A DNA stretch of 64,000 nt, taken from Steroidobacter agaridevorans (lineage in GTDB: Bacteria; Pseudomonadota; Gammaproteobacteria; Steroidobacterales; Steroidobacteraceae). Positions 2,924 through 17,360 of the stretch are shown here, piece by piece. The position numbers were made by a program, and so were the translations under genes. The stretch lies in contig NZ_BLJO01000005.1 of NCBI RefSeq assembly GCF_009932555.1, forward strand, positions 147,140 through 211,139, in the 5' to 3' direction. Numbering within the stretch: the first letter of the stretch is position 1; each line of letters starts with the position of its first letter. The notes below the pieces were generated by a model. The model did not search any database. It was not told the origin of the DNA and saw only the letters and a program-made list of their open reading frames with translations.

Positions 2924-4207
2924 TCAAAACTTGGTGTTGAAATCGAGCATGAGCCGATCGAAGTCGTACTCGGTGCCCACGTCCTTGTTGTTCGCGTTCT
3001 TGAAGTACGTGGCGTTCAACACCCAGTTCTTCGCCGGCGCATAGCCAGTGCGCAACACCCAGCCGTCGGAGTCCGACACGCCGCCGCCGAAATCGGAGTC
3101 GATGTGTTGGGCGAACAGCGCATCCTTCTCGATCAGCTGATACGCGAGGCCGGTTTCCCACGTGCCTGGGTTCGACGCCTTGCCGACCATCGTGCCCATG
3201 GTGAATGCGGTGTCGTATTCGGCGTCGAGGTTGCGCGCGACCTCGGCCCACACCTGGAACGGCACATCGCGCAGCTTGAAGTTGTACTCCGTCATCAGGT
3301 CCACGACCTGGAAGTCGTACGCCAGACCGCCACTGGGGTTGAGCGAGTTGCCGTTCGGGGAATTGTTATAGAACGGGCGACGGCGTTCGGCGGCGGCGAG
3401 GTCGTAGTAAGAAGCCGCGACCACCAGGTTGTTGCCGCCGAGATCGAAACGATTGCCCAGCTGCAGGCCATACATCTTCGTGTCGGTGGTAGTGCTCGTC
3501 GTGGCGGTGCTCTGCACGTTCTCTTCCAGCCAATAGCTCCACGCCGAGCCGAACATCGAGCCGACGCTGTAGGTCAGCGCGATGCCTTCGGGATTGATGT
3601 CGTTGTCCCAGAACAGACTCTGGCCGGGCCGCACGAACGGCATCTTCATCTTGCCGGCGATGAAATGAGCGTCGTCGGCAAACGTCCAATCGAAATAGGC
3701 GAGATCGAGATACAGCGACTTGCGCGAGAACGCGCCGTCGAGCTGCACGTTCCCGCCGCGCGGACTGCCGGAAGTCACGATGCCAACGGCGGCGACGATG
3801 TTGTCGTTTACTTTTGCTTCCACACCGAGACGTGCGCGCAGCAGATCTTCTTCGCGCTTGGCGCTGGCACTGTCATCGTCGGTCTGTTGATGACGGTAAC
3901 GAACGTCGCCCTTGAGCACGACGCGGCTCGGCCAGTCCGCGCCTTTCACGGCGGGCACTGCCGGCTTCATGTCGGCCGCCCGATTGGCGGCGTGGGCCAC
4001 TTGTTTGCTGACCTGTTCGGTCTGCGCCTTGAGCTGGTCGTTCTCGGATTTGAGCGAGTTGTTTTCGGCTTCGAGCTTGTCGACTCGCTGCATGAGACTT
4101 TGCAACTGCGAGCGGATCTGCGCGAGCTCATCGTTCGAGGCTGCGTGCGCCGCCGAGCCCAAGCTCAGAGCAGCGGCAACGGCGGCCGCGAGGAGCGGAT
4201 TCTTCAC
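2924..4207 (-). CDS. Putative outer-membrane porin
   Basis: 427 residues. A signal peptide (residues 1-22, ending AHA) is followed by a heptad-rich coiled coil (about 24-70, LQSLMQRVDKLEAEN) and then alternating hydrophobic strands rich in aromatic residues, ending in the Phe (FNTKF) that outer-membrane barrels need for BAM-dependent insertion. Coiled coil plus barrel fits the 'putative porin' (Porin_5-like) family; the coiled coil probably trimerises or contacts the cell wall. Substrate is unknown. The downstream Cache-like gene is probably in the same operon. Confidence 0.8.
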   Translation of the reverse strand: MKNPLLAAAVAAALSLGSAAHAASNDELAQIRSQLQSLMQRVDKLEAENNSLKSENDQLKAQTEQVSKQVAHAANRAADMKPAVPAVKGADWPSRVVLKGDVRYRHQQTDDDSASAKREEDLLRARLGVEAKVNDNIVAAVGIVTSGSPRGGNVQLDGAFSRKSLYLDLAYFDWTFADDAHFIAGKMKMPFVRPGQSLFWDNDINPEGIALTYSVGSMFGSAWSYWLEENVQSTATTSTTTDTKMYGLQLGNRFDLGGNNLVVAASYYDLAAAERRRPFYNNSPNGNSLNPSGGLAYDFQVVDLMTEYNFKLRDVPFQVWAEVARNLDAEYDTAFTMGTMVGKASNPGTWETGLAYQLIEKDALFAQHIDSDFGGGVSDSDGWVLRTGYAPAKNWVLNATYFKNANNKDVGTEYDFDRLMLDFNTKF

Positions 4208-4410
4208 AAGGTTCTCCGGTAAGGGACGATGTATGGCCGTCGTGCCGGGACGTCACGCGTCCGTCACACGACTGCAACATTGCGATGGTTACCGGCCTGC
4301 AGCACTGCCGTTATGCGATTTCGCCTGATGCACCCCTACGGCCGGGCCGGGCAGTGACCGTTATGTGAACCTGCTCCCAAGCGGTTTGTGACGTACCTCT
4401 CCAAAAAGAA
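4208..4410. other. Gene-free spacer upstream of the porin
   Basis: This stretch lies between the porin start and the terminator of the RNA-binding protein gene. It should contain the porin promoter on the minus strand. It carries some GC-rich inverted stretches but no repeat, RNA gene or clear promoter that I can defend. Confidence 0.4.
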
Positions 4411-4440
4411 AAACCCCGAGGTATTGCTACCTCGGGGTTC
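4411..4440 (-). terminator. Intrinsic terminator of the RRM protein gene
   Basis: A perfect 12-bp stem (4412-4423 with 4428-4439) closes a TTGC/GCAA loop. Read on the minus strand it is followed by a T-rich tract with two runs of T separated by one C. It sits 36 bases after the stop of the minus-strand RRM gene, as expected for Rho-independent termination. Confidence 0.85.
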
Positions 4441-4475
4441 TTCACAAGCGAAGCTAGCTTCGTTGTTGGCGCCGC

Positions 4476-4793
4476 TTACCAGCGGCCGCCACCGCCGCCG
4501 CCGCCGCCCGGGCCACGGGGGCCACGGCCACCGCCGCCGCCACCACCGCCCTGACGCTCCTGCGCTTCATTGACGCGCAGCGGACGGCCACCCATGTCCT
4601 TGCCGTTCAAGGATTGAATGGCGCGCTGTGCGTCGGCACGCGGCATTTCCACGAAGCCGAAGCCGCGAGGACGACCGGTTTCACGGTCGTTGATCAGGGC
4701 GACGGACTCCACGGTGCCGTGCTGTTCGAACATCTGGCGAACCTGGTCCTCGTTCGCCGAGAACGGCAGGTTACCCACATAGATCTTTGTCAT
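4476..4793 (-). CDS. Glycine-rich RNA-binding protein (single RRM)
   Basis: 105 residues with one RNA-recognition motif at about residues 2-78: RNP2 is IYVGNL and RNP1 is RGFGFVEM, both with their aromatic RNA-stacking positions intact. The last 25 residues are almost only Gly/Arg/Pro, as in bacterial and plant glycine-rich RNA-binding proteins linked to cold and stress responses. It binds single-stranded RNA in the cytoplasm and may act as an RNA chaperone. The gene stands alone: a strong terminator follows, and a gene-free region of 388 bases precedes it. The GGN codon repeats come from the Gly tail, not from a tandem repeat insertion. Confidence 0.9.
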   Translation of the reverse strand: MTKIYVGNLPFSANEDQVRQMFEQHGTVESVALINDRETGRPRGFGFVEMPRADAQRAIQSLNGKDMGGRPLRVNEAQERQGGGGGGGGRGPRGPGGGGGGGGRW

Positions 4794-5181
4794 AGCGATA
4801 CAGTCTCTCTGAAAAAGCCTCGAGCGCGATCCCCCTGCTGGGAAATATCATCACTGCGAGGCCTGGTTACATTCGGGCTCCGCCCCTGCACTCCCCCAGT
4901 CGTTCCTGACGCAGAAGTCATGCGGTTTAGGTTCCCAGGCCTACGTTCGCGGTCTCGTCGGATTTTTCAGAAGTTGGCCGAAAAAAGGGTCTTCAATGAC
5001 CCGGCTGGCCAAGCCAGAGAAAAAAGCGGGCAAAGGCACAACGAACGGCGCGGAATGTACGCCAATCAAAGAGTCAAGGCAATCGGCGACAAAGCCCGCA
5101 GGTCCTTGAAAATAGGGATACAACGGCGAATGTATCGGGCGCGCAGCGCACCGTAATGCGCGCCCCGGCGCGGGGCCTTGG
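4794..5181. other. 388-base gene-free region upstream of the RRM gene
   Basis: Both flanking genes are on the minus strand, so this contains the 3' end of the metZ-HAD transcript and the promoter/leader of the RRM gene. Apart from the small terminator at 4981-5002 I see no gene. Small frames in it lack a plausible ribosome site and show no protein-like composition. A long leader would suit a cold-regulated transcript, but I found no cold-box motif. Confidence 0.4.
4981..5002 (-). terminator. Probable intrinsic terminator of the metZ-HAD operon
   Basis: On the minus strand a short GGGTC/GACCC stem with a six-base loop is followed directly by six T (4981-4986). It lies about 180 bases after the HAD gene stop. 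The stem is only five pairs, so the call rests mainly on the T tract. Confidence 0.5.
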
Positions 5182-5886
5182 TTAGCGCCGCAGCCCCAAC
5201 AGGGTGCCGAGCTCATGCAATGTTCGCACTGTATGCACCGGCGCCCCGAACTCGGCCGACCATGCGAAGTCGCCGCGATTGATCCAGACCGGATGCATAC
5301 CGGCGGCCCTTGCCCCGACTACGTCCAGGGCCGGATCGTCGCCCACATACACAACCTGTTGTGGTGTCAGTCCGGTTCCTTCAATTACCTTGTGGAACAG
5401 GAGCGGATCCGGCTTCAACGCACCGACCTCCCGGGCGGCCAGGCAGCGCTCGAAATAATGCGCCAGACCGATGCGTTTTAGATCGGCGTTACCGTTACTG
5501 GCGGTAAACAGACGGAAGTGCGGCTTGAGCCAGTCCAGGCCCGGCAGCACGTCGTCGTACAGCACCACTTCGTTGCGCGCCTGGAGGAAAGCCTCGAACG
5601 CCTCGTCGGCCATGGCCTCGGCGTAACCGAACTCCCGGGCATGATCGGCCAGTGTCTGCCGGCGCAAAAAAGTAAAGTCATGCGCCATTTGGGGGTAGGC
5701 CTGCGCAGTCTCCTGGCGAGCTTTGCGCAACATCTCGACCGTCATGGCGGCGGTCACGCGGGGGTACTTGAGGGCTAGAAAATCGTACATGGCCTGTTCG
5801 GCCCGCTCGATCACCGGCATCACGTCCCAGAACGTGTTGTCCAGATCGAAGCAGACCGCGCGGACGCCCGACAGGTCGCCCGCCAT
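5182..5886 (-). CDS. HAD-superfamily hydrolase (YigB/GpH-like phosphatase)
   Basis: 234 residues from ATG 5886. All four HAD motifs are visible: I, DLDNTFWD (nucleophile Asp and acid/base Asp); II, TASNG; III, the Lys in LKPDP; IV, GDDPALD. A helical cap lies between motifs I and II, as in C1-type small-metabolite phosphatases. It probably dephosphorylates a cytosolic metabolite; the YigB flavin-pathway role is one option, unproven here. The start overlaps the metZ stop (TGATG), so translation is coupled. The longer 554-residue frame is discarded because its first part is an out-of-frame reading of metZ. Confidence 0.85.
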   Translation of the reverse strand: MAGDLSGVRAVCFDLDNTFWDVMPVIERAEQAMYDFLALKYPRVTAAMTVEMLRKARQETAQAYPQMAHDFTFLRRQTLADHAREFGYAEAMADEAFEAFLQARNEVVLYDDVLPGLDWLKPHFRLFTASNGNADLKRIGLAHYFERCLAAREVGALKPDPLLFHKVIEGTGLTPQQVVYVGDDPALDVVGARAAGMHPVWINRGDFAWSAEFGAPVHTVRTLHELGTLLGLRR

Positions 5887-7076
5887 CACGCCGCCACCGC
5901 ACGAACCGCCGCGAGGCCGCGCTCGAGATCGGTTTGCAGATCGCGCACGTCTTCCAGACCGACCGAGATGCGGAGCAAACCTTCCGTAATGCCGGCGCGC
6001 TCGCGCTCCGCGGGACTGATTCTCGAATGAGTGGTCGTCGCCGGATGAGTGATGGTGCTCTTGGTGTCGCCGAGGTTCGCAGTGATCGAGAGCAACCGCG
6101 TCGCGTCGACGAACGCCCAGGCGCCCTTTCGGCCCTGCTCGACATCGAACGCGATAATGCCGCCGAAGCCGCTCTGCTGCCGCTTCGCGAGCGCATGTTG
6201 CGGGTGCGACTCCAACCCCGCGTAGTACACCTTGCTGACGCCCGGCTGCACTTCCAGCCAACGGGCCAGCTGCAACGCGGCGGCGGAATGCGCCCGCATG
6301 CGCAGTTCCAATGTTTCCAACCCCTTCAGGAACACCCAGGCATTGAACGGGCTCATGCTCGGCCCGGCGGTGCGCAGGAAGCCGAAAATATCCTTGCCGA
6401 CCAGTTGTTCGTTGCCCAGCACCGCGCCGCCCACGCAGCGCCCCTGACCGTCCAGATATTTGGTGGCCGAGTGGATCACCAGATCCGCGCCCAGCTCGAA
6501 CGGTTTCTGCAATGCCGGCGTGCAAAAACAGTTGTCGACGATCAACAGCACGCCGCGCTCGTGCGCGATATCGGCGATGGCGCGAATGTCCGCGATGACC
6601 GAAAGCGGGTTCGACGGGGTCTCGAGGAAGAACAACTTGGTGTTGCTCTTGATCGCGCGCCGCCATGCCTCGCTGTCGTCCGGACGCACATAGGTGACTT
6701 CGACGCCGAACTTCACCAGGTACCGATTGATCAGCGCGATGGTCGAGCCGAACACGCTGTCGGAACAAACGATGTGATCGCCCGCCTTCATCAGCGCCAT
6801 GCAGGTCGCGAGAATGGCCGCCATGCCGGAGCCGGTCGCGACACACGAGGCCGCGCCTTCCAGCGCCGCGAGCCGCTCTTCGAAGCAGCGCACGGTGGGA
6901 TTGGTGAAGCGCGAATAGATATTGCCCTTGACGCTCTCGTCGAAGCGCGCGGCGGCATCGGCGGCGCTCGCGAACACATAGCTCGACGTGGTGAAGATGG
7001 GCTCGGAATGCTCGGCTTCGTGGGAGCGGCTCTGGCCGGCGCGGACCGCGAGCGTGGCAAGGTGATGTTCAGTCAT
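5886..7076 (-). CDS. metZ: O-succinylhomoserine sulfhydrylase
   Basis: About 396 residues of the Cys/Met-metabolism PLP enzyme family. Visible marks are SGMAAI in the cofactor-binding region, PSNP, VDNCF and the Schiff-base lysine in HSATKYLDGQGR. The last is typical of MetZ, which joins sulfide to O-succinylhomoserine to give homocysteine. The family usually has about 400 residues, so it is full length. I take ATG 7076 rather than the TTG six bases earlier. It is divergent from the GST gene with a 65-base gap that must hold both promoters. The coupled downstream HAD gene suggests cotranscription, not necessarily a shared pathway. Confidence 0.92.
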   Translation of the reverse strand: MTEHHLATLAVRAGQSRSHEAEHSEPIFTTSSYVFASAADAAARFDESVKGNIYSRFTNPTVRCFEERLAALEGAASCVATGSGMAAILATCMALMKAGDHIVCSDSVFGSTIALINRYLVKFGVEVTYVRPDDSEAWRRAIKSNTKLFFLETPSNPLSVIADIRAIADIAHERGVLLIVDNCFCTPALQKPFELGADLVIHSATKYLDGQGRCVGGAVLGNEQLVGKDIFGFLRTAGPSMSPFNAWVFLKGLETLELRMRAHSAAALQLARWLEVQPGVSKVYYAGLESHPQHALAKRQQSGFGGIIAFDVEQGRKGAWAFVDATRLLSITANLGDTKSTITHPATTTHSRISPAERERAGITEGLLRISVGLEDVRDLQTDLERGLAAVRAVAA

Positions 7077-7141
7077 GGTCAACGAGGGTTTAATAAATCT
7101 CGGTGGACGGGATGCGGGGCGTGCCGCATTCTACTCAACCC

Positions 7142-7780
7142 ATGCTTACTCTCGTCATCGGCAACAAGAATCTCTCCTCCTGGTCGCTGCGCCCCTGGCT
7201 GGTGCTGAAGCATTTCGGCGTGCCGTTCCAGGAAGTGAAGCTGCCGCTCGACACACCTGAATTCCAGCGCGACATCGTCAAGTATTCGCCGACGCGGCGC
7301 GTGCCGCTGCTGATCGACGGCGAGCTGAAGATCTGGGACTCGCTGGCCATCGCCGAGTACCTCAACGAGCGGCTTCAGGGCCGCGCCTGGCCGTCCGATC
7401 CCAGCGCCCGGGCGCTGGCGCGTGCGGTCAGCGCCGAGATGCATTCAGGCTTCGCGGCCTTGCGCACTAACTGGCCGATGAAGGCGATCGGTACCGCGAT
7501 CGTGCCGCTGCCTCCGCAAGGCATCGACGATGTGAATCGGGTTCAGCAGCTGTGGCACGAGTGCCGTTCGCAATATGCGCAACGTGGGCCGTGGCTGTTC
7601 GGCGAGTACTCGATCGCCGATGCCATGTACGCGCCGGTCGCCGTGCGTTTCCGCCACTACGGCTCGAGGTTTTCCAGCCCCATCGTCGAGGCGTACCAGC
7701 AGCAACTCCTCCAGGATCCATACATGCAGGAGTGGATCGCCGAGTCCCAGGTGGAAGTGGACACGGGCTTCGGCACTTAA
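7142..7780 (+). CDS. Glutathione S-transferase family protein
   Basis: 212 residues from ATG 7142. The N-terminal thioredoxin-like half has NKNLSSWSLRPWLVL (Ser near the glutathione thiol), the cis-Pro in RRVPLLIDG, and the glutathione-binding DSLAIAEYL. The C-terminal half is all-helical, with the usual SIADAMYAP motif. Likely a cytosolic conjugating or reducing enzyme; substrate unknown. The 39-base longer reading begins within the intergenic promoter region and is rejected. A 129-base gap separates it from the next gene. Confidence 0.9.
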   Translation: MLTLVIGNKNLSSWSLRPWLVLKHFGVPFQEVKLPLDTPEFQRDIVKYSPTRRVPLLIDGELKIWDSLAIAEYLNERLQGRAWPSDPSARALARAVSAEMHSGFAALRTNWPMKAIGTAIVPLPPQGIDDVNRVQQLWHECRSQYAQRGPWLFGEYSIADAMYAPVAVRFRHYGSRFSSPIVEAYQQQLLQDPYMQEWIAESQVEVDTGFGT

Positions 7781-7909
7781 CCGAGTCGGTAAATAACGCT
7801 CAGCTCGCAGCGCTGCCGACGACAGGCCGCGCGACGGCGATTGCAGAATGGCATTTAACGAAAGAATGCCTAGAATCGAGCGCTCGACTCGCATTCAAGC
7901 AGGACAGCT

Positions 7910-9094
7910 ATGCGCTGGGCATCCGCCGTCGACACCGATAATTCCTTGCGGGCCGCAGTGGAGCATGCCGCTGAGACCGTGTTCCTCGGGCTGGGACGTC
8001 AGGAACCGGATCTGGCGATCGTGTTCGTGAGCGCCGAGCACTCGGGCCACTTCGACGCCGTGCCGGCGCTGCTCCAACGCGAGTTCGAAAATGTCTTCAT
8101 TTTCGGCTGCTGTGGCGGTGGCGTGATCGGCGGCGGTCGCGAGATCGAAGATCGTCCCGCCTTTTCGTTGACCGGCGCAGTGCTGCCCGGCGTGCGCCTG
8201 AAAGGCACGCATCTGGATGCCGCCCAAGTGCCGCCGGTGTACGCCGAAGCACGCGCGTGGGAAGACGCATTGCGGGTCACCTCCGCTCAGCAGCCCTCAT
8301 TCCTGTTGCTTGCCGACCCTTTCAGCTTCGAGGCCGAGACCTTCATCCGTGGCCTGGACCGAATCTATCCGTTGGCGCCGAAGATAGGCGGCCTGGCGAG
8401 CGGCGCGCGGCAGGTGGGCGGCAGCGCGTTGTACCTGGGCAATCAGGTCTACCACTCGGGCTGCATTTCACTCGCCCTGACCGGCAACGTCGATATCGAC
8501 ATGGTGGTCGCGCAGGGCTGCCGGGCGATCGGCGATCCGATGTTCGTCACGTCGGCGCACGAGAATCTGATCCGGGAGCTCGACGGGCGCTCGCCCCGGG
8601 ATGTGCTGTCGGCGCTGTTCGAGCGCCTGCCCGCGCCCGATCGGGAGTTGTTCAGTCAATCTTTGCATCTGGGCATGGCGATGCGCACCGACGCGAGCGA
8701 ATTCACGCCGGGCGATTTTTTGATCCGTGGCATTCTCGGCATGGATCCGCAAAGCGGCGCGTTGTGGGTCAGCGCCAACGTGCCCGCGAATAGCGTCGTG
8801 CAATTCCATCTGCGCGACGCCGCCACCTCGGCCATCGACCTGGAACGCACGCTGCGGGCTTATCGGGCTTCGCATCCCGTCGAACCCGATGCCGGGGCGT
8901 TGCTGTTCTCCTGCCACGGCCGCGGCATTGGCTTGTACGGTCAGGCCGATCACGACAGCAATGCGTTCCGGCGCCTGGTCGCTGACCTGCCCATCGGCGG
9001 CTTTTTCTGCGACGGCGAGTTCGGGCCCATCCAGAACTCCACCTTCCTGCACAGCTACACCAGCGCCTTCGCGGTTATCCACGAGAAGAAATAA
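7910..9094 (+). CDS. FIST N/C domain sensor protein
   Basis: 394 residues. The N-terminal FIST domain shows GCCGGGVIGGG and the PKIGGLASG turn; the C-terminal FIST_C part includes MAMRTDASEFTPGDFLIRGILGMD and ends in GGFFCDGEFGPI. FIST domains are small-ligand (amino-acid-like) sensors usually found with histidine kinases, GGDEF or MCP partners. No output domain is fused here, and no signalling gene is adjacent. FIST pairs with F-box-like partners in other organisms, but nothing here shows its target. ATG 7910 follows AGGACAGCT. Confidence 0.85.
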   Translation: MRWASAVDTDNSLRAAVEHAAETVFLGLGRQEPDLAIVFVSAEHSGHFDAVPALLQREFENVFIFGCCGGGVIGGGREIEDRPAFSLTGAVLPGVRLKGTHLDAAQVPPVYAEARAWEDALRVTSAQQPSFLLLADPFSFEAETFIRGLDRIYPLAPKIGGLASGARQVGGSALYLGNQVYHSGCISLALTGNVDIDMVVAQGCRAIGDPMFVTSAHENLIRELDGRSPRDVLSALFERLPAPDRELFSQSLHLGMAMRTDASEFTPGDFLIRGILGMDPQSGALWVSANVPANSVVQFHLRDAATSAIDLERTLRAYRASHPVEPDAGALLFSCHGRGIGLYGQADHDSNAFRRLVADLPIGGFFCDGEFGPIQNSTFLHSYTSAFAVIHEKK

Positions 9095-9148
9095 GCGCTT
9101 GCGATAAGCTCTATACTCCCGCCCTTTCGCCGGACCGGAGTCCCCTTG

Positions 9149-11218
9149 ATGCGTCAGTCGTTCGCCCCTGCCGCCTGTGCGTTGTCCGCTTGTTTACTGA
9201 TGCCGCTGGGCGCCCTCGCTGCCCCCCATCCCTTCAATGTCGAAGACCTGGTCCGCATGCAGCGCGTGTCCGAGCCGGTGCTCTCGCCCGATGGCCGCAC
9301 GGCCGTTTTCACGATGCGTGAGACCGATCTGGCCGCGAACCGGGGCCGCACCGATCTTTGGGCGCTCGATATCGCAACCAAAGGGGCGCAGCCTCGCCGG
9401 CTCACCACCCATCCCGAGGGCGACAGCTCGCCGGAATGGACCGCCGACGGTCGCGAGATTTATTTCCTGTCGACGCGCAGCGGCTCCAGCCAGGTGTGGC
9501 GTTTGCCGGCCAACGGCGGCGAAGCGATTCAGGTCACCGACCTGCCGCTCGATGTCGGTTCGTTCCACGTTGCCAGCCAGGCCGGCCGCCTTGCCGTGAC
9601 GTTGGAAGTATTCCCCGACTGCAACGACCTGCCGTGCACGGTCGACCGGCTCAAGGAAGCCAAGAACGTGAAGGACAGCGGCGAGGTTTACGACCGCCTG
9701 TTCGTGCGCCATTGGGACGCCTGGAGCGACGGCCGCATCTCGCAACTGTTCGTGCTCCAGCTGAGCAATGGGGCGGCCACCGAGCCAGTGTCGGTCAGCA
9801 AGGCCCTCGATGCCGACGTGCCGTCCAAGCCCTTCGGCGATGCGAGCGAATATACGTTCTCGCCGGATGGCTCCAGGCTGGTGTTCTCGACGCGCCTCAA
9901 GGGCAAGTCGGAGCCGTGGTCGACCAACTTCGATTTGTATGAAGTCGGCGTCGACGGCAGCGGCCTGCGCAACCTCACCGAAGACAACCCCGCCTGGGAC
10001 ACGCAGCCCGTGTTCTCTCGCGACGGCAGCCAGCTTGCGTGGCGCGCGATGGAACGCGCCGGCTTCGAAGCCGACCGTTTCCACGTCGTGGTCATGGATC
10101 TGAAGAGCGGCCAGCGTCGCGCGCTCACCAAGGAATGGGACCGTTCGGTCGACGGCATGGCCTTCGCCAACGACGGCAAGACGTTGTTCGTGACCACCGA
10201 TCATTTCGGCCAGCATCCGCTGTGGTCGGTCGAGGTGAAGACCGGCAAGCCCACCATGCTGACCGGCCCGGGACGCGTCGAAGCCTTCAGCGTCGGCGAG
10301 AAAGAAATCGTGCTGACGACGTCCTCGCTGAAATCTCCGGCCGAGTTGCAGGCGCTCACCATCAAGGGCGGCGATCTGCGGGCACTGCCTCGCATGAACG
10401 AAGCGGCGCTGGCGGAGGTCAAGCTCGGCGAGCCGGAGCAGTTCACGTTCGCGGGCGCCGAAGGTGCGACGGTATATGGCTTCGTGATGAAGCCGGCCGA
10501 CTTCAAGCCCGGCACGAAATATCCGGTCGCGTTCATCATCCATGGCGGCCCGCAGGGCTCGTTCGCCAATTCCTGGAGCTATCGCTGGAATCCGCAGACC
10601 TATGCGGGCGCGGGCTACGCGTCGGTGTTCATCGATTTCCATGGCTCGACCGGTTACGGCCAGGCGTTCACGGATTCGATCAGCCAGGACTGGGGCGGCA
10701 AGCCGCTCGAAGACTTGCAGAAGGGTCTCGCGGCCGCGCTCGACAAATATCAATGGCTGGACGGCGCTCGCATGTGCGCGCTCGGCGCGTCGTACGGCGG
10801 TTACATGATCAACTGGATCGCAGGCAACTGGGCCGAGCCGTTCAAGTGCTTGGTGAATCACGACGGCGTGTTCGACTCGCGCGCCATGGCCTACTCCACC
10901 GAGGAGCTGTGGTTCACGGAATGGGAGCAAGGCGGAATTGCGTGGGAAGTGCCGGAGAACGTCGAGAAGTTCAACCCGGTCAATCACGTCGCGAATTGGA
11001 ACAAGCCGATGCTCGTCATCCACGGCACGCGCGATCATCGAATTCCGTACGCGCAGGGCCTGTCGGCGTTCACAGCGCTACAGCGCAAGGGCATTCCCAG
11101 CCGCCTGCTGATGTTTCCGGACGAGAACCACTGGGTGCTCAAGCCCAACAACAGCATCCGCTGGCACCACGAGGTGCAGAAGTGGCTGAATGAGTGGACC
11201 GGCAAGAGCGGCGAATGA
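9149..11218 (+). CDS. S9-family prolyl oligopeptidase (dipeptidyl-peptidase-like)
   Basis: 689 residues. A signal peptide (1-24, ending ALA) leads to a beta-propeller assembled from SPDG-type WD40-like repeats (about 30-400) and an alpha/beta-hydrolase peptidase domain. The triad is clear: Ser548 in GASYGGY, Asp629 in GTRDHR and His661 in ENHW. The oxyanion region HGGPQGS is present. It should cleave short peptides in the periplasm, with the propeller screening substrates. ATG 9149 has GGAG eight bases upstream, better than the TTG one codon earlier. A strong terminator follows. Confidence 0.93.
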   Translation: MRQSFAPAACALSACLLMPLGALAAPHPFNVEDLVRMQRVSEPVLSPDGRTAVFTMRETDLAANRGRTDLWALDIATKGAQPRRLTTHPEGDSSPEWTADGREIYFLSTRSGSSQVWRLPANGGEAIQVTDLPLDVGSFHVASQAGRLAVTLEVFPDCNDLPCTVDRLKEAKNVKDSGEVYDRLFVRHWDAWSDGRISQLFVLQLSNGAATEPVSVSKALDADVPSKPFGDASEYTFSPDGSRLVFSTRLKGKSEPWSTNFDLYEVGVDGSGLRNLTEDNPAWDTQPVFSRDGSQLAWRAMERAGFEADRFHVVVMDLKSGQRRALTKEWDRSVDGMAFANDGKTLFVTTDHFGQHPLWSVEVKTGKPTMLTGPGRVEAFSVGEKEIVLTTSSLKSPAELQALTIKGGDLRALPRMNEAALAEVKLGEPEQFTFAGAEGATVYGFVMKPADFKPGTKYPVAFIIHGGPQGSFANSWSYRWNPQTYAGAGYASVFIDFHGSTGYGQAFTDSISQDWGGKPLEDLQKGLAAALDKYQWLDGARMCALGASYGGYMINWIAGNWAEPFKCLVNHDGVFDSRAMAYSTEELWFTEWEQGGIAWEVPENVEKFNPVNHVANWNKPMLVIHGTRDHRIPYAQGLSAFTALQRKGIPSRLLMFPDENHWVLKPNNSIRWHHEVQKWLNEWTGKSGE

Positions 11219-11227
11219 GTTTCGATT

Positions 11228-11260
11228 TTAAAGGCCCGCTGCGAAGCGGGCCTTTTTCTT
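11228..11260 (+). terminator. Intrinsic terminator after the S9 peptidase
   Basis: A ten-pair stem (11231-11240 with 11245-11254) with a short GCGA loop is followed by a T-rich tail on the plus strand. It sits between convergent genes and may also help end the minus-strand operon, whose stop is at 11268. Confidence 0.85.
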
Positions 11261-11267
11261 TGCCCGG

Positions 11268-12302
11268 CTACTCTTCGTCGGCGCGCCAGGCGGCTTGGTA
11301 GTTGTTGCCAACCCGAATGATCTGTTCCAGCAGCGCCGGATACTCCAAGCCGGCGGCGAGCGCCGAGTCGGCGAAGTCCTCCTCGCGGCTGATGTTCGGA
11401 TTGCAGTTCGCTTCCAGGACGAACACGCTGCCGTCCGGCCGCATGCGAAAGTCCATGCGCGCGTAACCGCTCAGGTACAGCGAGCGGAAGATGCGTTTCG
11501 ATAACTTATCCAGATAAGCGGCGCACCCTTCCGGCAGGTTCTGCGCAGCGCCGGTGCGGATGCCATGTTTCGTCTGATAGCGGCGATCCCACTTCACTTT
11601 GCGGGTGGCGATACCCGCCATCACGTCCGGCAAGGTGCCGAAATCCATCTCCCACACGGGCAGGGTCCGCAACCGGTCGTTGCCGAGCACGCCGACGTAC
11701 AGCTCGCGGCCCTCGATATATTCCTCGATGAGTGCGTCCGAGTTGGTCTGCTCGTGGATGAACTGGATACGTTCCTTCAACTTGTCGGCATCGGGGACCA
11801 CCGACGCTTGTGAGATGCCGAGCGACGCATCCTCGGTCACCGACTTCACGAACAGGGGAAACTTGAGCTTGCGCGGCAGCCGGTAGCGCTGCCCTTTGCG
11901 AATGACCGCGAAGCCCGGGGTAGGAATGCGGTGATAGGAAAGAATCTGTTTGGAGAGCGCCTTGTCGCGCGAGATCATCATGCCGCGCGGGTTGCAGCCG
12001 GTGTACGGCAGCTTCATCAGCTCCAGGAATGCGACCACGTACTGGTCGTAAGTAACGATGCCCTGGAATTCCTCGAGCAGATTGAAAGCCACATCGGGCT
12101 TCCACTCGGTGATGATGGAGCGCAGCTCGGCGAGATTGTCGCCCAGCCCGAGCGCCCGCACTTCGTGGCCGGCCTTCTCCAGCGCCGCCTTCACATCGTA
12201 TTCAGTCCTGAACTCGTCGATTTCCTTATCACTGAGGCCCTTGAGACTCTCTGGCGGCACCAGACTCTCATGCATCAGCACCAGGACTCGACGCGGCTTC
12301 AT
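11268..12302 (-). CDS. D-Ala-D-Ala ligase-like ATP-grasp protein
   Basis: 344 residues. The N-terminal part (VAFNLLEEFQGI), the central ATP-grasp (FPLFVKSVTEDASLGIS with the ATP lysine, IEEYIEGRELYVGVLG) and the C-terminal metal site (MDFRMRPDG, EANCNPNIS) follow the Ddl plan. Ddl enzymes usually end in EVNTLPG; here EANCNPNIS departs from that. The protein is therefore probably not the housekeeping Ddl but a related peptide/amino-acid ligase. ATG 12302 overlaps the stop of the upstream zinc peptidase by four bases (ATGA), giving coupled translation. Pairing a ligase with a peptidase suggests making and breaking of one peptide or isopeptide bond; that is inference. Confidence 0.85.
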   Translation of the reverse strand: MKPRRVLVLMHESLVPPESLKGLSDKEIDEFRTEYDVKAALEKAGHEVRALGLGDNLAELRSIITEWKPDVAFNLLEEFQGIVTYDQYVVAFLELMKLPYTGCNPRGMMISRDKALSKQILSYHRIPTPGFAVIRKGQRYRLPRKLKFPLFVKSVTEDASLGISQASVVPDADKLKERIQFIHEQTNSDALIEEYIEGRELYVGVLGNDRLRTLPVWEMDFGTLPDVMAGIATRKVKWDRRYQTKHGIRTGAAQNLPEGCAAYLDKLSKRIFRSLYLSGYARMDFRMRPDGSVFVLEANCNPNISREEDFADSALAAGLEYPALLEQIIRVGNNYQAAWRADEE

Positions 12303-13360
12303 AGGGTGTAGCGTTCGCGGTCCCGCCGCAGCATGTCGATCAAGATTCGCTCCAGTACGCCCAGCAACGAGCGCTTGGCTTCGTGTTTGGAAGTATCCAG
12401 CACCAGGTCCAGCTCACGGCAGCGTTGAGTCACCGTCCTCAGCACATGATGCACGAGATAAGGATACAACCGCGAGCGCCGCATCAGCCAACGTTCCAAT
12501 TCCGGCCGGCTCTGGCGCACGAACGTGCTCGCACGTACGCGCCGCCGACCCTTTTGATATTTGCCGAAGACACGCTTGAGCCGCAAGTCATACGCGTCCG
12601 GCGTATCGAAGTCATAGCGGGCCCGCTTGCGGCGATAGTGCTCGGCCAGCGTGGTTTTGTTCTTGCCGATCGGCTCGATCAGCGAACGGTTCATCACGTG
12701 CGGCAGCGTGCCGGACAGCTCGATCATCAGCCGATCCACATATTCCAGCTTCTCGAGCGCGGGCCAGCCCTGATAGTCGCGCCGCCAGCGCGCTTTGGGC
12801 TGCATCCACACCGCGAAGGTTTCGGCCCAGTCTTCGGTGGGATGGCTCTGCGCGTACCAGTGGCCCAGATGTAAGACGAAGTCACGACTGGCGGGCCGCG
12901 GCCGATACACGTTTGGATAGCGCCGCTCCGGATCGCCGAAAGTCTCGCGCCATCCCTTGCGGCGGCGGATGCGATAGGCATTGTCGAGGGCGTGCGCGAA
13001 CTCGTGGCGCATGATGCGGGTCAGCCAGTTGGCATTGCCGCCCTCCACCTCGTCCATCATCTTGCGCTCCAGGCGCATCAGCCGCGGATGCGCCATATAG
13101 AACGCGATGGCGATGCCGGGCACGCCATCGGGGGAGAACCATTCTTCGGACAGCCAGACATGCGGCGCGAACAGGATGCCGCGGCGCTTGAGATCGCGCC
13201 GGATCTGGCGGATGTGACTGTCGATCTCCGTGTGGCGCAGAGTCAGCCGCAGGTCGCAGAAACGTTTCTGCAACAGCTCCTCGTCGCTGAGCCGTGTCCA
13301 GGCGGGTTCGCGGGAGCGCACACGACGACGAGCAGGAGCACGCTTGATCCGAGTCGCCAT
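12299..13360 (-). CDS. Putative zinc-binding metallopeptidase
   Basis: 353 residues, strongly basic, no signal peptide. The zincin helix HEFAH is at residues 119-123 (ligands His119, His123, catalytic Glu120). A downstream WAETFAVW places Glu180 as a likely third ligand, the arrangement of the 'putative zinc-binding metallopeptidase' family. A long RIRRRKGW insert lies between them, and the C-terminus is Arg-rich. It is probably cytosolic; substrate unknown. It starts three bases after the stop of the phosphatase-fusion gene and overlaps the ATP-grasp start, so all three form one operon. Confidence 0.8.
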   Translation of the reverse strand: MATRIKRAPARRRVRSREPAWTRLSDEELLQKRFCDLRLTLRHTEIDSHIRQIRRDLKRRGILFAPHVWLSEEWFSPDGVPGIAIAFYMAHPRLMRLERKMMDEVEGGNANWLTRIMRHEFAHALDNAYRIRRRKGWRETFGDPERRYPNVYRPRPASRDFVLHLGHWYAQSHPTEDWAETFAVWMQPKARWRRDYQGWPALEKLEYVDRLMIELSGTLPHVMNRSLIEPIGKNKTTLAEHYRRKRARYDFDTPDAYDLRLKRVFGKYQKGRRRVRASTFVRQSRPELERWLMRRSRLYPYLVHHVLRTVTQRCRELDLVLDTSKHEAKRSLLGVLERILIDMLRRDRERYTL

Positions 13361-13363
13361 CGC

Positions 13364-14791
13364 TCAATGCATCAAATGGCGGGCCAGGGAGCGCAACACG
13401 GCTTCTTCGGACAACTGCCGTTGCAGTTCGGGCGAAATGGCATCGCCGCCATGATAGGCGCCGCACAGGGCGCCACAGAGCGCGGCTGCCGATGGCGCGG
13501 CTCGCGAGGAAGTGAGCACACGAATCAACGAATCGTGTAGCGTCTTGGCGCCGGCAAAGCCGTTCAACGCCACGCAGGTTACCGCGAGGGCATCGCTGGC
13601 ATCGACACAAGGCTTCGCGCGCCCCTCGACCAATTGTTTGACCTGCGGCTTGAGCTGGCGCTGCCGAACCAACTGCATCGCCGGCCCGCCGAAGCCCAGC
13701 AATGTTTGTTTGTTCACGCCGGCGAACGCATCGACGAACAGCGCCGCCCAGACGCGGCACAGATCCAGCACGATCGGCGACTGCTGCGTGGTGCGCGAAG
13801 CTTCGACCGCTGCGTCGATGGCCGCTTGCGGATCGCTGCGAAGAAACATTGCGACCACCAAGGTGCGCGGCAGCGAATGCGGATCCAGATTGGCTGGGTC
13901 GTGCGTGCCCGCCAGCTTTTTTCTCGACCATTGCCACCCCGCCAGCGCCCGGCGCACTTCCTGAGGCACGCCGATATTGCCGACGCTCTGGCTCCAGGCG
14001 AGATAGCGCTGCATCTGGTCGTCGGAATCGTTGATGCCCTTGGCCAGCAAGCTCTCGGCCAAGGCGCGAGTCATCGCCGTGCTTGCGCCGGTGACGAGCA
14101 TTCCGGCATCGCGCAGGCCGCCGCCAGCCACCAGCGTTGCGGCGTCGAAATTGCTGTTCGCGACCATGCTGCCGAACGCGTCGCCGATCGCCAGTCCGAC
14201 GATGCTGGCTTCATACCGTCCCAGCACATCGACCGGACTGCCCGGCGCCATCGACTCGCGCCATTGACGCACGAATTCGATTTGCTCGTCGGTCTCGGGA
14301 ATGGTCGGCCAGCGGTGCGAGCGGCCGCACTGCTGCCACAGATCCTGCAGCCGATCGAGCGCTGCCTCGCTGCCCAAGCCGCTGCGGATCAAATGACAGC
14401 CGATCGTGGTGCCGGTGCGGCCGATGCCTGCCCGGCAGTGAACGTAAACGCAGCGGCCGGCGGCCAGCTCGCTGTCGATGAAATCCAGGATTCGCACCAT
14501 GTGGGCCGGCGACTCCGGCAAGCCATGATCGAGCACCGGCAGCCGCCGATAACGGATGTGCTGCTCGCTGAGCTTGGCCAGGAGCGGATCGTAGGCGGGC
14601 ATCTCGCCCTCTTCGGTCAGGTCGACGAAGCTGTTGATGCCCGCGTGCAACAGCTTCTGCACGCGTTCTGTCGCCTCGGCGCGCGACATCGATCCCGGAT
14701 ACTCACCGGCGAGCAGCTGCCCTGGGCGCACCCAATAGCTGTTCGGGATCGGCACCGAGGCGATGCCGACAGTGAAAGGATCGGTACTCAT
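13364..14791 (-). CDS. Tyrosine/dual-specificity phosphatase fused to a degenerate ADP-ribosylglycohydrolase domain
   Basis: 475 residues from ATG 14791. Residues 15-180 are a cysteine phosphatase with the P-loop HCRAGIGRTG (Cys119, Arg125) and intact-looking WPD-region sequence. Residues 190-450 align with the ADP-ribosylglycohydrolase fold: GLAIGDAFG (199-207) at its start, ALAESLL near 243-249, and GALCGAYHG (440-448) at its end. The two acidic metal sites of that family are gone: TDDT is replaced by GAST (235-238), and the GD-x-DT stretch by TSSRAAPSA (427-435). The second domain is thus probably a binding rather than a cleaving module. First gene of the three-gene operon. Confidence 0.82.
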   Translation of the reverse strand: MSTDPFTVGIASVPIPNSYWVRPGQLLAGEYPGSMSRAEATERVQKLLHAGINSFVDLTEEGEMPAYDPLLAKLSEQHIRYRRLPVLDHGLPESPAHMVRILDFIDSELAAGRCVYVHCRAGIGRTGTTIGCHLIRSGLGSEAALDRLQDLWQQCGRSHRWPTIPETDEQIEFVRQWRESMAPGSPVDVLGRYEASIVGLAIGDAFGSMVANSNFDAATLVAGGGLRDAGMLVTGASTAMTRALAESLLAKGINDSDDQMQRYLAWSQSVGNIGVPQEVRRALAGWQWSRKKLAGTHDPANLDPHSLPRTLVVAMFLRSDPQAAIDAAVEASRTTQQSPIVLDLCRVWAALFVDAFAGVNKQTLLGFGGPAMQLVRQRQLKPQVKQLVEGRAKPCVDASDALAVTCVALNGFAGAKTLHDSLIRVLTSSRAAPSAAALCGALCGAYHGGDAISPELQRQLSEEAVLRSLARHLMH

Positions 14792-14943
14792 GGGCAGCCA
14801 TGATAAGGGATGCGGTCGGCATAAACCCGCACCGCGGCCGGTGCGTTCCACCTATATTCGCGCCCGGCCGGAAGACGCCTCGCGACCTTGACTTGGCCGC
14901 AGCCGCCGCCAATTCTCGTCAGACCCCACCCGAGGACTCTTCC

Positions 14944-15417
14944 ATGCAAAAGCCCACCGAATCGGCCGTCAGCTCCGCCAGCGGCTACGACCTGCGTCCC
15001 TTGAGCAAGGCCGAACGTGAACGGCTCGCGGTCTCGCTGACCCCGGAAGAGCGCCACATCATTCTGGATCACGGCACCGAGCGGCCGTTCTGCGGCACTT
15101 TGCTGAACAACAAGCAGTCGGGGCTGTATGCCTGCCGCCTGTGCGGGTTGCCGCTGTTCCAGGCCAATGCCAAGTTCGAGTCCGGCACCGGCTGGCCGAG
15201 CTTCTATCAGCCGTTCGATCCCGAGCACATCACCGAGCTGCGCGATGTCAGCCACGGCATGATCCGCACCGAGATCCGCTGCCGCCGCTGCGACGGTCAC
15301 CTGGGACACGTGTTCCCGGACGGCCCGCCGCCGACTCATCAGCGCTATTGCCTGAACTCGGCGTCGATGCAGTTCTATCCGGAAGGTCAGCCGCCGGAAC
15401 AGCACACGGCCGCATAA
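14944..15417 (+). CDS. msrB: Peptide-methionine (R)-S-oxide reductase
   Basis: 157 residues from ATG 14944, preceded by GAGGA. The MsrB fold is plain: two zinc-binding CxxC pairs (CRLC and CRRC), the substrate-site FESGTGWPSF, HLGHVFPDG, and the catalytic cysteine in RYCLNSASM. It reduces the R epimer of methionine sulfoxide in proteins, in the cytosol since no signal peptide is present. The longer reading from 14800 overlaps the divergent gene's promoter and has no protein-like start. Confidence 0.95.
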   Translation: MQKPTESAVSSASGYDLRPLSKAERERLAVSLTPEERHIILDHGTERPFCGTLLNNKQSGLYACRLCGLPLFQANAKFESGTGWPSFYQPFDPEHITELRDVSHGMIRTEIRCRRCDGHLGHVFPDGPPPTHQRYCLNSASMQFYPEGQPPEQHTAA

Positions 15418-15432
15418 GCAACCGCGTATCCC

Positions 15433-15456
15433 GGGGCGAGGTTCAAGCCTCGCCCT
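15433..15456. terminator. Hairpin between convergent msrB and yqhA
   Basis: An eight-pair GC-rich stem (15434-15441 with 15448-15455) and a six-base loop lies 17 bases after the msrB stop and overlaps the end of the convergent gene. No T tract follows in either direction, so termination may need Rho. Confidence 0.4.
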
Positions 15457-15970
15457 CGTGATCGTGACTGCCGTGGGACTTGGCGGTAATTCGATCCAGC
15501 ACGCCCATCATCACCGCCGACACGACGAACGTCAGATGGATGATGACGTACCACATCAGCGTGTCGCCTTTCTCGGCCAGCGTCGGCGTCTCCATGAAAG
15601 CGCGCAACAAATGAATCGATGAGATCGCGACGATGGACGAGGCCACCTTCAACTTGAGGGAATTGGCGTCGAGCTTGCCCAGCCAGCTCAACTTTTCGGC
15701 GCCCTCCTCCACATCCAGCGCCGACACGAAGTTCTCGTAACCCGAGAACATCACCATGACGATCAGGCTGCCGACCAGCACCATGTCGACCAGCGCGAGC
15801 AGCAACAGCACCATGTCCGCTTCGGCCATGAAGGCCACATCGGTGATCAGGTGGTACAGCTCCTGGAAGAACTTGATGCCCAGCGCGACCAGCGCCAGCG
15901 ACATGCCCAGATAGACGGGCGCCAGAATCCAGCGACTGGCAAACAACAACTTTTCGATCGTCTTTTCCAT
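15443..15970 (-). CDS. YqhA/UPF0114-family inner-membrane protein
   Basis: 175 residues with four hydrophobic stretches: about 12-34, 52-77, 105-122 and 137-158. [24 protein letters not shown] and the [11 protein letters not shown] segment are characteristic of the YqhA (TIGR00645) family. Function of the family is not established. The C-terminus is a His/Asp/Glu-rich tail. The start at 15970 is the first ATG at the conserved N-terminus; a longer reading runs into the divergent promoter. Confidence 0.9.
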
Positions 15971-16067
15971 TGCTCCGTTCCGGACCGGCGGTACCGGCGG
16001 GGATTCTACCGTATGACCCGCTGAACGTATTGGATGTCGATCCGGTCGGGGGTACAGTCCGCCCAGC

Positions 16068-17360
16068 ATGAGCGCAGACACTCAGCAGGGAGAAGGCAGC
16101 GGAAGCCCGGCTTCGTTCGCAACCGAGCGCATGCAGCTGGCCCGGCTGCACGCCAGCCCGGCGTCGCGGCTACGCGACTTGTGGTTGCAACTGTCGGAAA
16201 TTGCGGCGCGAACCTTGAACGTCGAGCGCGTCGGCGTATGGATTCTGGCCGACGAGGATCGAGCGCTGCGTTGTCGATATCTGCTGCAATTCTCCAGTCA
16301 GCAGGTTTTTCAAGGCGCGGTGTTGCGCGCGCAGGATTTTCCCACTTATTTTCAAGCGCTGCAGCAGCAGCGCACCATTGCCGCCGATGACGCACTCAGC
16401 GCAACGACCACCGGCGAGTTGCGCGAGTCGTATCTCGAGCCGCTGGGTATTACCTCGCTGTTGGATGCCCCGATTTACGTAGGCGGCAAAGTGGTCGGCG
16501 TCGTTTGTCACGAGCACATCGGTGCGCCACGCATGTGGAGCGAAGCCGAAAGCGATTTCGCGGCGACGATCGCGGATACGATTGCACGCCTCTATGGCGA
16601 ATATGAGCATCGCCACGCCGAGACAGCGCTGGAAAGTTACCAGCTGCATCTGATGGAGTTGCATCGCATGGAGGCGCTGGGGCGCATGGCCGCCGGCGTC
16701 GCGCATGACTTTCGAGGGATTGTGAGTATCGCGCTCGGCTTCACCGAGTTGATCCGCCGCGTTCCCAATCTGGCGCCGCAGGCGGATCACTATGCGCAGC
16801 GCGTGATCGAAGCGCTCCAGCGAGGTCAGAATCTCACCCAGGAGATCATGAACTTCGGCAAGGACGATCCGGTGTCACCGCGCGTTCTGGACATTGGCGC
16901 GGCGCTGTCGAAATGTTCTCACATGTTTCGTGTACTGCTCGGCACCGGCATCCGCCTGCGAGTGCGCAGCTCGGGCCCGGTGAGTCGAGTGTTCATGGAC
17001 GCGTCGCAGTTCGAGCGCATGATGCTGAACCTGGTCATCAACGCGAGAGACGCCATGCCCTCGGGCGGCGACCTCGACATCGACTACCAGGACGCCATCA
17101 TCGGCGACGAAGATGACGAACGTGCGACGTATGTCGCGATCTATGTCCGCGACAGCGGCGTCGGCATGGATGAGATGACGCGCCTCAACGCGTTCAAGCC
17201 GTTCTTCACGACCAAGGGCGACCGAGGCACTGGCCTCGGATTGGTGATCGTCGATCAAATCGTCGCGCGCGCCGGCGGCCGAGTGAAGATCGACAGCGAC
17301 GTCGGTCGCGGCACGACGCTGCAGGTTTATTTGCCGAGAATCGCGGCGGCGGCTCGGTAA
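16068..17360 (+). CDS. GAF-domain sensor histidine kinase
   Basis: 430 residues, soluble. A GAF domain spans about 25-185. The dimerisation/phosphoacceptor segment has [13 protein letters not shown] with His213. The kinase domain carries the N box ([16 protein letters not shown]), G1 (VRDSGVGM) and G2 (GTGLGL). The phosphoacceptor is followed by DFRGIV rather than the usual DFNNLL/ELNNPL, a mild deviation. No response regulator gene is adjacent, so the partner is elsewhere. ATG 16068 lies 97 bases from the divergent yqhA. Confidence 0.9.

Follow-up and report, generated by a model that had tools for sequence, protein, structure and literature searches.

What does an ADP-ribosylhydrolase (ARH) fold do once its catalytic residues have been replaced, and why does it stay joined to a phosphatase that has kept its own? 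The question is raised by a gene in a 64,000-nucleotide stretch of Steroidobacter agaridevorans DNA, the whole of which we call the window. The gene occupies 13364..14791 of the minus strand, exactly the coordinates originally predicted, as a single open frame with its ATG at 14791 and a stop ending at 13364. The open reading frame, Pfam matches and relatives together define its 475-residue product, P0001, as a fusion of a DSP phosphatase and a pseudo-ADP-ribosylglycohydrolase. Comparisons were made in a set of 81 proteins, namely that of the window and those of the best 80 of 226 confirmed stretches, and because only these 80 were kept the set represents the nearer part of the family. The nearest named relatives among the best 80 of 226 are Peristeroidobacter agariperforans (94%), P. 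soli (90%) and Steroidobacter (83%).

The N-terminal half is a DSP/PTP domain (residues 13-178; 14258..14755, minus strand), matched in Pfam by PTP-SAK (residues 19-148, E 7.2e-15) and DSPc (E 3.6e-10). Its P-loop HCRAGIGRT (residues 118-126, with Cys119 and Arg125; 14414..14440, minus strand) agrees with HCxxGxxR[S/T] and is intact, as had been claimed, and the acid loop DHGLP supplies Asp88 (14528..14530, minus strand) as the putative general acid. Cys119 and Arg125 are invariant in all 81 proteins (best 80 of 226 plus the window) and Asp88 is found in 80, the one exception, L053, being gapped at that position. Comparison with VIA-align matched this half to Tk-PTP, VHZ and KAP with Z about 19-21, and these proteins share the P-loop. 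Unlike P0001, the solved entries for VHZ/DUSP23, KAP and Tk-PTP have no attached ARH domain and, to our knowledge, the full-length proteins carry none. The DSP half is probably a working phosphatase.

The C-terminal half (residues 190-470; 13382..14224, minus strand) has the ARH fold and is predicted to be non-catalytic. Pfam places it in the PF03747 fold family (ADP_ribosyl_GH, residues 196-454, E 1.9e-25). The AlphaFold2 model of the fusion (54 sequences) has a mean pLDDT of 89.9 and a pTM of 0.65, and the mutual packing of the two domains is not fixed by the model; alignment A2 comprised 54 of the 81 proteins and alignment A3 had 32 rows. Foldseek returned 2cwc first, with TM scores by target length of 0.83-0.84 to 2cwc and 2yzw. 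VIA-align gave Z 36.4 to both 2yzw and 6drh, which we take to be Tri1, the latter with an rmsd of 2.1 over 280 residues. The ARH scaffold is therefore kept, in agreement with the original prediction. ARH-like folds within larger machines were also matched, those of the Ycf2/Orf2971-FtsHi motor at Z 28-29 and those of mitoribosome assembly at Z 22-23. These matches suggest a capacity of the fold for structural or docking roles. No second PF03747 protein turned up when the window's genome was searched, and a single macrodomain protein did.

Upon alignment with the Thermus ARH 2cwc, the metal motif TDDT falls on GAST (residues 235-238; 14078..14089, minus strand) and DADT on AAPS (residues 431-434; 13490..13501, minus strand). 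Replacement of both acidic motifs had been proposed, with GAST at 235-238 and TSSRAAPSA at 427-435, and the numbering proved right. Three further losses accompany these: the catalytic Glu of GDALGxxxE is Ala, the GNG loop has become DPH within a replaced region spanning residues 295-309 (13865..13909, minus strand), and the His of RTTH is Gln, so that RTTQQSP (residues 333-339; 13775..13795, minus strand) stands in place of RTTHG. P0001 thus lacks every sequence feature by which an active ARH or DraG was recognized, namely both metal motifs ([T/S]DDT and DxD[T/S]), catalytic Glu, GNG loop and TTH His. The possibility that Asp pairs are supplied from elsewhere was rejected at the level of sequence as far as nearby residues go: residues 229-244 and 425-440, which surround the two metal motifs, contain neither Asp nor Glu, in line with the predicted losses. 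In four close genomes GAST and either AAPS or AAPA occupy the same places in a frame without internal stops, and since these replacements are shared the site loss in P0001 is no one-off error.

In ARH1 and ARH3, according to the available text of PMC6309922, the metals are held by a Glu and by [T/S]DDT and DxD[T/S]-type motifs, and mutation of even one abolishes activity. DraG, Tri1 and ARH3 have a fold in common with P0001 (Z 33-36) and are clearly homologous to it in sequence, but they keep the Glu and metal motifs that are needed for activity (on the basis of ARH1 and ARH3, in the same portion of PMC6309922) and P0001 does not. By the features tested P0001 would therefore belong to the ARH fold family by descent without being an ADP-ribosylhydrolase; its ARH half would no longer bind the two metals nor hydrolyze ADP-ribose.

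The replacements extend beyond the metals. Gly138 and His168 of LchARH3 sit on the pyrophosphate of the ligand, as given in the available part of PMC6309922, and their likely equivalents in our alignment are the GNG loop and the His of TTH. As the GNG loop, the TTH His and the catalytic Glu are all replaced, P0001 is more than a metal-less ARH, for these ADP-ribose contacts have gone as well, and with the pyrophosphate-side loops of ARH3 replaced ADP-ribose binding is not the default prediction. This bears on the original prediction of a pseudoenzyme that binds ADP-ribose or a nucleotide and steers a phosphatase. The pseudoenzyme part stands well with a degenerate ARH domain, an intact phosphatase and the purifying selection described below, but its ADP-ribose part does not survive as the default; the remodeled pocket may still take up a nucleotide or some other small ligand. 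The corresponding explanation, that the ARH half binds but does not cleave ADP-ribose, NAD or a related nucleotide, or else ADP-ribosylated proteins, and directs the phosphatase to these ligands, seems to us unlikely. The fold and a remodeled, conserved side of the pocket remain, ARG-phosphatase systems elsewhere are predicted to handle ADP-ribose (PMC9503650, in the sections available), and a standalone relative of the DSP half (43%) lies beside Sir2 and MavL-type macrodomain genes on a Sphaerotilus plasmid. However, both loops whose putative ARH3 counterparts contact the pyrophosphate (PMC6309922, available text) are replaced, and comparable site changes in the pseudo-ARH ADPRHL1 are said, in the portion of PMC7390403 at hand, to prevent docking of ADP into the model.

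Loss of the site proceeded stepwise among the relatives. In the 81 proteins (best 80 of 226 plus the window) all four metal Asp residues are retained in 24, three in 28, two in 7, one in 8 and none in 14, including P0001; L099 and L112, which end before the second metal motif, are both counted among the 7 with two. Both complete motifs, [T/S]DDT and DxD[T/S], are present in L066 only. Within the same 81 proteins GNG is kept in none, the catalytic Glu in 2 (L061 and L072) and the TTH His in 28. The residue following the TTH-His position (Gln337 in P0001) is Gln in 81 of 81, and His297, Asp298 and Arg309 are found in 77, 78 and 80 of the 81 fusions, respectively (again best 80 of 226 plus the window).

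These changes were placed on a quick maximum-likelihood tree made with the motif columns excluded, a tree that has SH-aLRT support only, 18 open forks and long branches to L072 and L114. The first Asp of TDD was lost once on this tree, in a group of 22 proteins including that of the window (SH-aLRT 92), and the first Asp of DxD required 13 changes. In a second group of 11 proteins it is the second Asp of TDD that is replaced, mostly by Lys, and this Lys/Arg/Glu group is a second route to losing the metal site. Its members are L054, L056, L057, L059, L060, L063, L079, L080, L087, L091 and L105, with Arg in L087 and Glu in L060.

The attached phosphatase served as a yardstick for selection on the ARH half. 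In the five closest genomes (10 pairs) the ARH half has a median dN/dS of 0.096 and the DSP half one of 0.0955, values that are approximate given dS of up to 1.15 in this set, and the degenerate ARH domain is under purifying selection in these genomes. Over nine genomes the medians are 0.255 for the ARH half versus 0.178 for the DSP half (35/36 pairs usable each). The ratio of ARH to DSP protein distances is 1.66 in proteins that lost the first TDD Asp (21 proteins), 1.13 where only the second is replaced (11), 1.01 where both are kept (45) and 1.21 in the five closest genomes; note that the pairs are not independent and that L053, L089, L099 and L112 plus the ARH-only controls L032/L033 were excluded from these ratios. 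There are, then, signs of loosened selection on the ARH half alongside retained constraint.

Faster ARH evolution where TDD is lost, together with the nine-genome dN/dS values, also fits slow decay. The main rival explanation is built on this: the ARH half would be a decaying relic left after its substrate vanished, and the phosphatase alone would do the job. We consider this improbable, although the stepwise loss over the tree also speaks for it. Against a relic speak an ARH dN/dS as low as that of the DSP half in the five closest genomes, a frame that is free of stops in all five, and the conserved His297 and Gln337, residues absent from canonical ARHs at these places.

The distribution of constraint along the domain bears on the same point. 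When stretches of the window's clade (12 proteins) were ranked by conservation, only 2 of 274 were as conserved as RTTQQSP or more so, itself included, and 8 of 266 as conserved as residues 295-309 or more so. The places of the old metal site are ordinary in this clade, the corresponding figures being 92 of 277 for GAST and 194 of 277 for AAPS. The contrast is weaker over the 81 proteins (best 80 of 226 plus the window), in which the loops rank at 16 of 274 (RTTQQSP) and 17 of 266 (295-309) and the TDDT and DxDT places at 48 and 174 of 277. We read this as constraint that has probably moved to the former pyrophosphate side in the window's clade.

The genes behind the fusion, its putative operon partners, give an indication of its context. 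Three nucleotides past the fusion stop begins a gene for a HExxH metallopeptidase (12299..13360, minus strand; Pfam Peptidase_Mx, with HEFAH at residues 119-123), and this gene overlaps by 4 nt that of a D-Ala-D-Ala-ligase-like ATP-grasp enzyme (11268..12302, minus strand; Pfam). The latter was rejected as the housekeeping Ddl, since a different gene elsewhere in the window's genome is the stronger Ddl match. The peptidase model is weaker (pLDDT 74.5), and its fold is matched best by the anthrax lethal factor catalytic core (Z 8.9) and next by Pro-Pro endopeptidases (Z about 7), which we read as probably reflecting the shared zincin core only, with no family assignment. On the other side of the fusion lies a divergent msrB-like (SelR) gene (14800-15417, plus strand); an msrB-like match lies close to the fusion in 11 of the 80 loci (best 80 of 226), all in the window's clade.

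Gene order was counted by tblastn in 68 of the 80 loci (best 80 of 226), 12 with less than 2,300 nt downstream being left out. In 57 of these 68 the fusion is followed, at the spacing expected and without a change of strand, by the peptidase gene and then the ATP-grasp gene. The other 11 comprise seven loci with the ATP-grasp gene directly behind the fusion and no peptidase match, L083 with both partners further off, L045 with a weak partial ATP-grasp match, and L064 and L067 with neither partner. In the genome of L064 (G026) the peptidase starts about 20 kb from the fusion and crosses a contig end into a piece that has the ATP-grasp gene. In G024 the ATP-grasp gene is present and fusion and peptidase were undetected. 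HExxH is kept in all 62 peptidase homologs of the best 80 of 226 loci that had a stop-free matched stretch of at least 280 residues, the requirement for being counted.

In two genomes of the family a DSP without an ARH half precedes the same peptidase/ATP-grasp pair, directly in L178 and with a gene between in L177. The intervening gene of L177 (5427-5915), between phosphatase and peptidase, encodes a response-regulator receiver protein. That these two relatives keep DSP, peptidase and ligase without ARH also favors the relic explanation. Together with the gene order, they tie the phosphatase to the ligase/peptidase pair and make the ARH half look like an addition. Among 299 genomes sampled from the phylum, strong peptidase matches were limited to that of the window and to five belonging to a single other genus; five weak matches lay outside these. 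In each of the three of those five genomes that were examined (L162, L163 and L164) the Peptidase_Mx-like gene adjoins a Ddl-like ATP-grasp gene and nothing matches the fusion, so the fusion-free pair may be an older module of two genes.

The fused form prevails in the window's own family. A 60-genome sample contained 37 Steroidobacteraceae genomes, the window's own included, of which 36 gave a match and 33 had both halves together (one of these, G003, seemingly split by a frame break). The exceptions are G019 and G023 with phosphatase only, G014, where a contig end truncates the match, and G024 without a match. An order-wide sample of 147 genomes gave at least 20 fusions, all in Steroidobacteraceae, with phosphatase alone or ARH alone in other families; G717 and G721, of Steroidobacteraceae, had a weak ARH match only. 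Among the matches listed for 274 genomes of the class, with just five candidates scored in some of them, none spanning both halves lay outside Steroidobacteraceae. An extra ARH-like stretch without phosphatase (32-33% to the ARH half) was seen in G029 (C77) and G036 (C13) in addition to the fusion of each genome. A plasmid-borne fusion module was rejected: none of 72,556 plasmid records reached 80% coverage of the protein, 16 of them had partial matches, and the peptidase has no plasmid match. The Sphaerotilus sulfidivorans plasmid pSna507_unt13 (L034, 1948-8495) carries the standalone DSP relative with Sir2, MavL-type macrodomain (annotated DUF4804), MoxR and VWA genes, a run that was likened to an ADP-ribose/vWA conflict-type cluster.

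The original prediction had called the pairing unusual, a view the literature does not bear out. The available part of PMC9503650 (section 3.8) states that a little over 55% of ARG neighborhoods couple ARG to a phosphatase, encoded within one polypeptide with it or by a neighboring gene, so the pairing itself is known. Like those systems, P0001 joins ARG/ARH to a rhodanese-superfamily phosphatase, here in one polypeptide. In that text, however, the ARG is taken as active and often has WYL/Nudix regulators and chaperones with it, whereas P0001 has lost the site and is accompanied by a Ddl-like ATP-grasp enzyme and a HExxH peptidase. P0001 would not count as an ARG able to process ADP-ribose in the sense of PMC9503650, its metal and ligand residues being absent. 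None of the 8 genes scanned at 5886-16081 of the window encodes a WYL/Nudix regulator or a vWA/TY/SseB chaperone, families that the available text gives as frequent and not universal. ATP-grasp and metallopeptidase appear in PMC9503650 only in other contexts, "inactive" is used only of TIR-type domains, and Steroidobacter is unmentioned. In two genomes of the class sample, G280 and G304, a DSP gene lies near one for an ARH whose motifs are intact, and G304 additionally encodes a WYL regulator and a VIT/VWA protein in that neighborhood. The L146 stretch (3136-11065) has a WYL regulator, an intact-motif ARH, a TPR-like gene (by eye), a DSP and a VIT/VWA gene in one run, and it and the G304 neighborhood resemble the ARG-centered systems in the available sections of PMC9503650.

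The same two-domain pairing, as given in the available text of PMC9503650, is what would favor an anti-phage system in which an ARH still active through other residues strips off viral ADP-ribose marks. We regard this as very improbable, because P0001 has none of the four metal Asp, no catalytic Glu and no acidic residue near either metal motif, because the 8 nearby genes, the two partners included, lack WYL or Nudix regulators and vWA or chaperone families, and because gene order is conserved across the family. The CDC123/R2K-type ATP-grasp reported beside ARG in the accessible portion of PMC4431377 was set aside as a different ATP-grasp type from the Ddl-like partner. Nothing resembling the fusion-type pairing was found in the available text on NTP-dependent conflict systems (PMC7159879).

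Given the domains, losses, conservation, selection and gene order established from sequence, the explanation we prefer, with confidence that is evenly balanced, is a phosphatase that carries in cis a non-catalytic module of ARH fold, with a binding or regulatory role, and that serves a ligase/peptidase module. The ARH fold would have turned into a metal-free module whose pyrophosphate-side loops were remodeled and are conserved as the metal-site positions drift, and it would most likely recognize a ligand or protein and thereby localize or gate the phosphatase. The fusion would work with the HExxH metallopeptidase, which would cut peptides, and with the Ddl-like ATP-grasp ligase, which would add an amino acid or peptide, the three genes forming a small Steroidobacteraceae module. 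A more specific version, which we offer only tentatively, is that the ARH domain has been rebuilt as a metal-free sensor or docking unit, that its former pyrophosphate loops (GxHDPxN...L.R and RTTxQxP) now line a new conserved pocket which gates the DSP, and that the DSP in turn controls a reversible peptide-tagging cycle of ligase and metallopeptidase.

A precedent in kind is ADPRHL1 (ARH2), a vertebrate pseudo-ARH in which, according to the available part of PMC7390403, metal and substrate residues are replaced and the fold is kept and needed, much as that of P0001 is kept by selection. ADPRHL1, however, is a vertebrate heart protein that has no phosphatase (same source, as available), and its loss is presumably independent of that in P0001. 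P0001 may work like ADPRHL1 with a phosphatase added, a likeness in kind and not one of orthology. No description of an inactive bacterial ARG with phosphatase, or of the gene trio, was recognized among the leading matches in the open literature. What seems to be new is an ARH-site loss that is stepwise, complete in the window's clade and under continued selection, together with conserved ligase and peptidase partners.

For Steroidobacteraceae, a family of environmental bacteria, this means that one architecture can be traced from complete metal motifs (L066) to full degeneracy with the attached phosphatase as an internal yardstick, and such an erosion series within one family makes the birth of a pseudoenzyme testable. 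The findings suggest that a dead enzyme has been reused as a regulatory or docking part, and they point to a three-gene module of phosphatase, peptidase and ATP-grasp ligase that may modify proteins or peptides.
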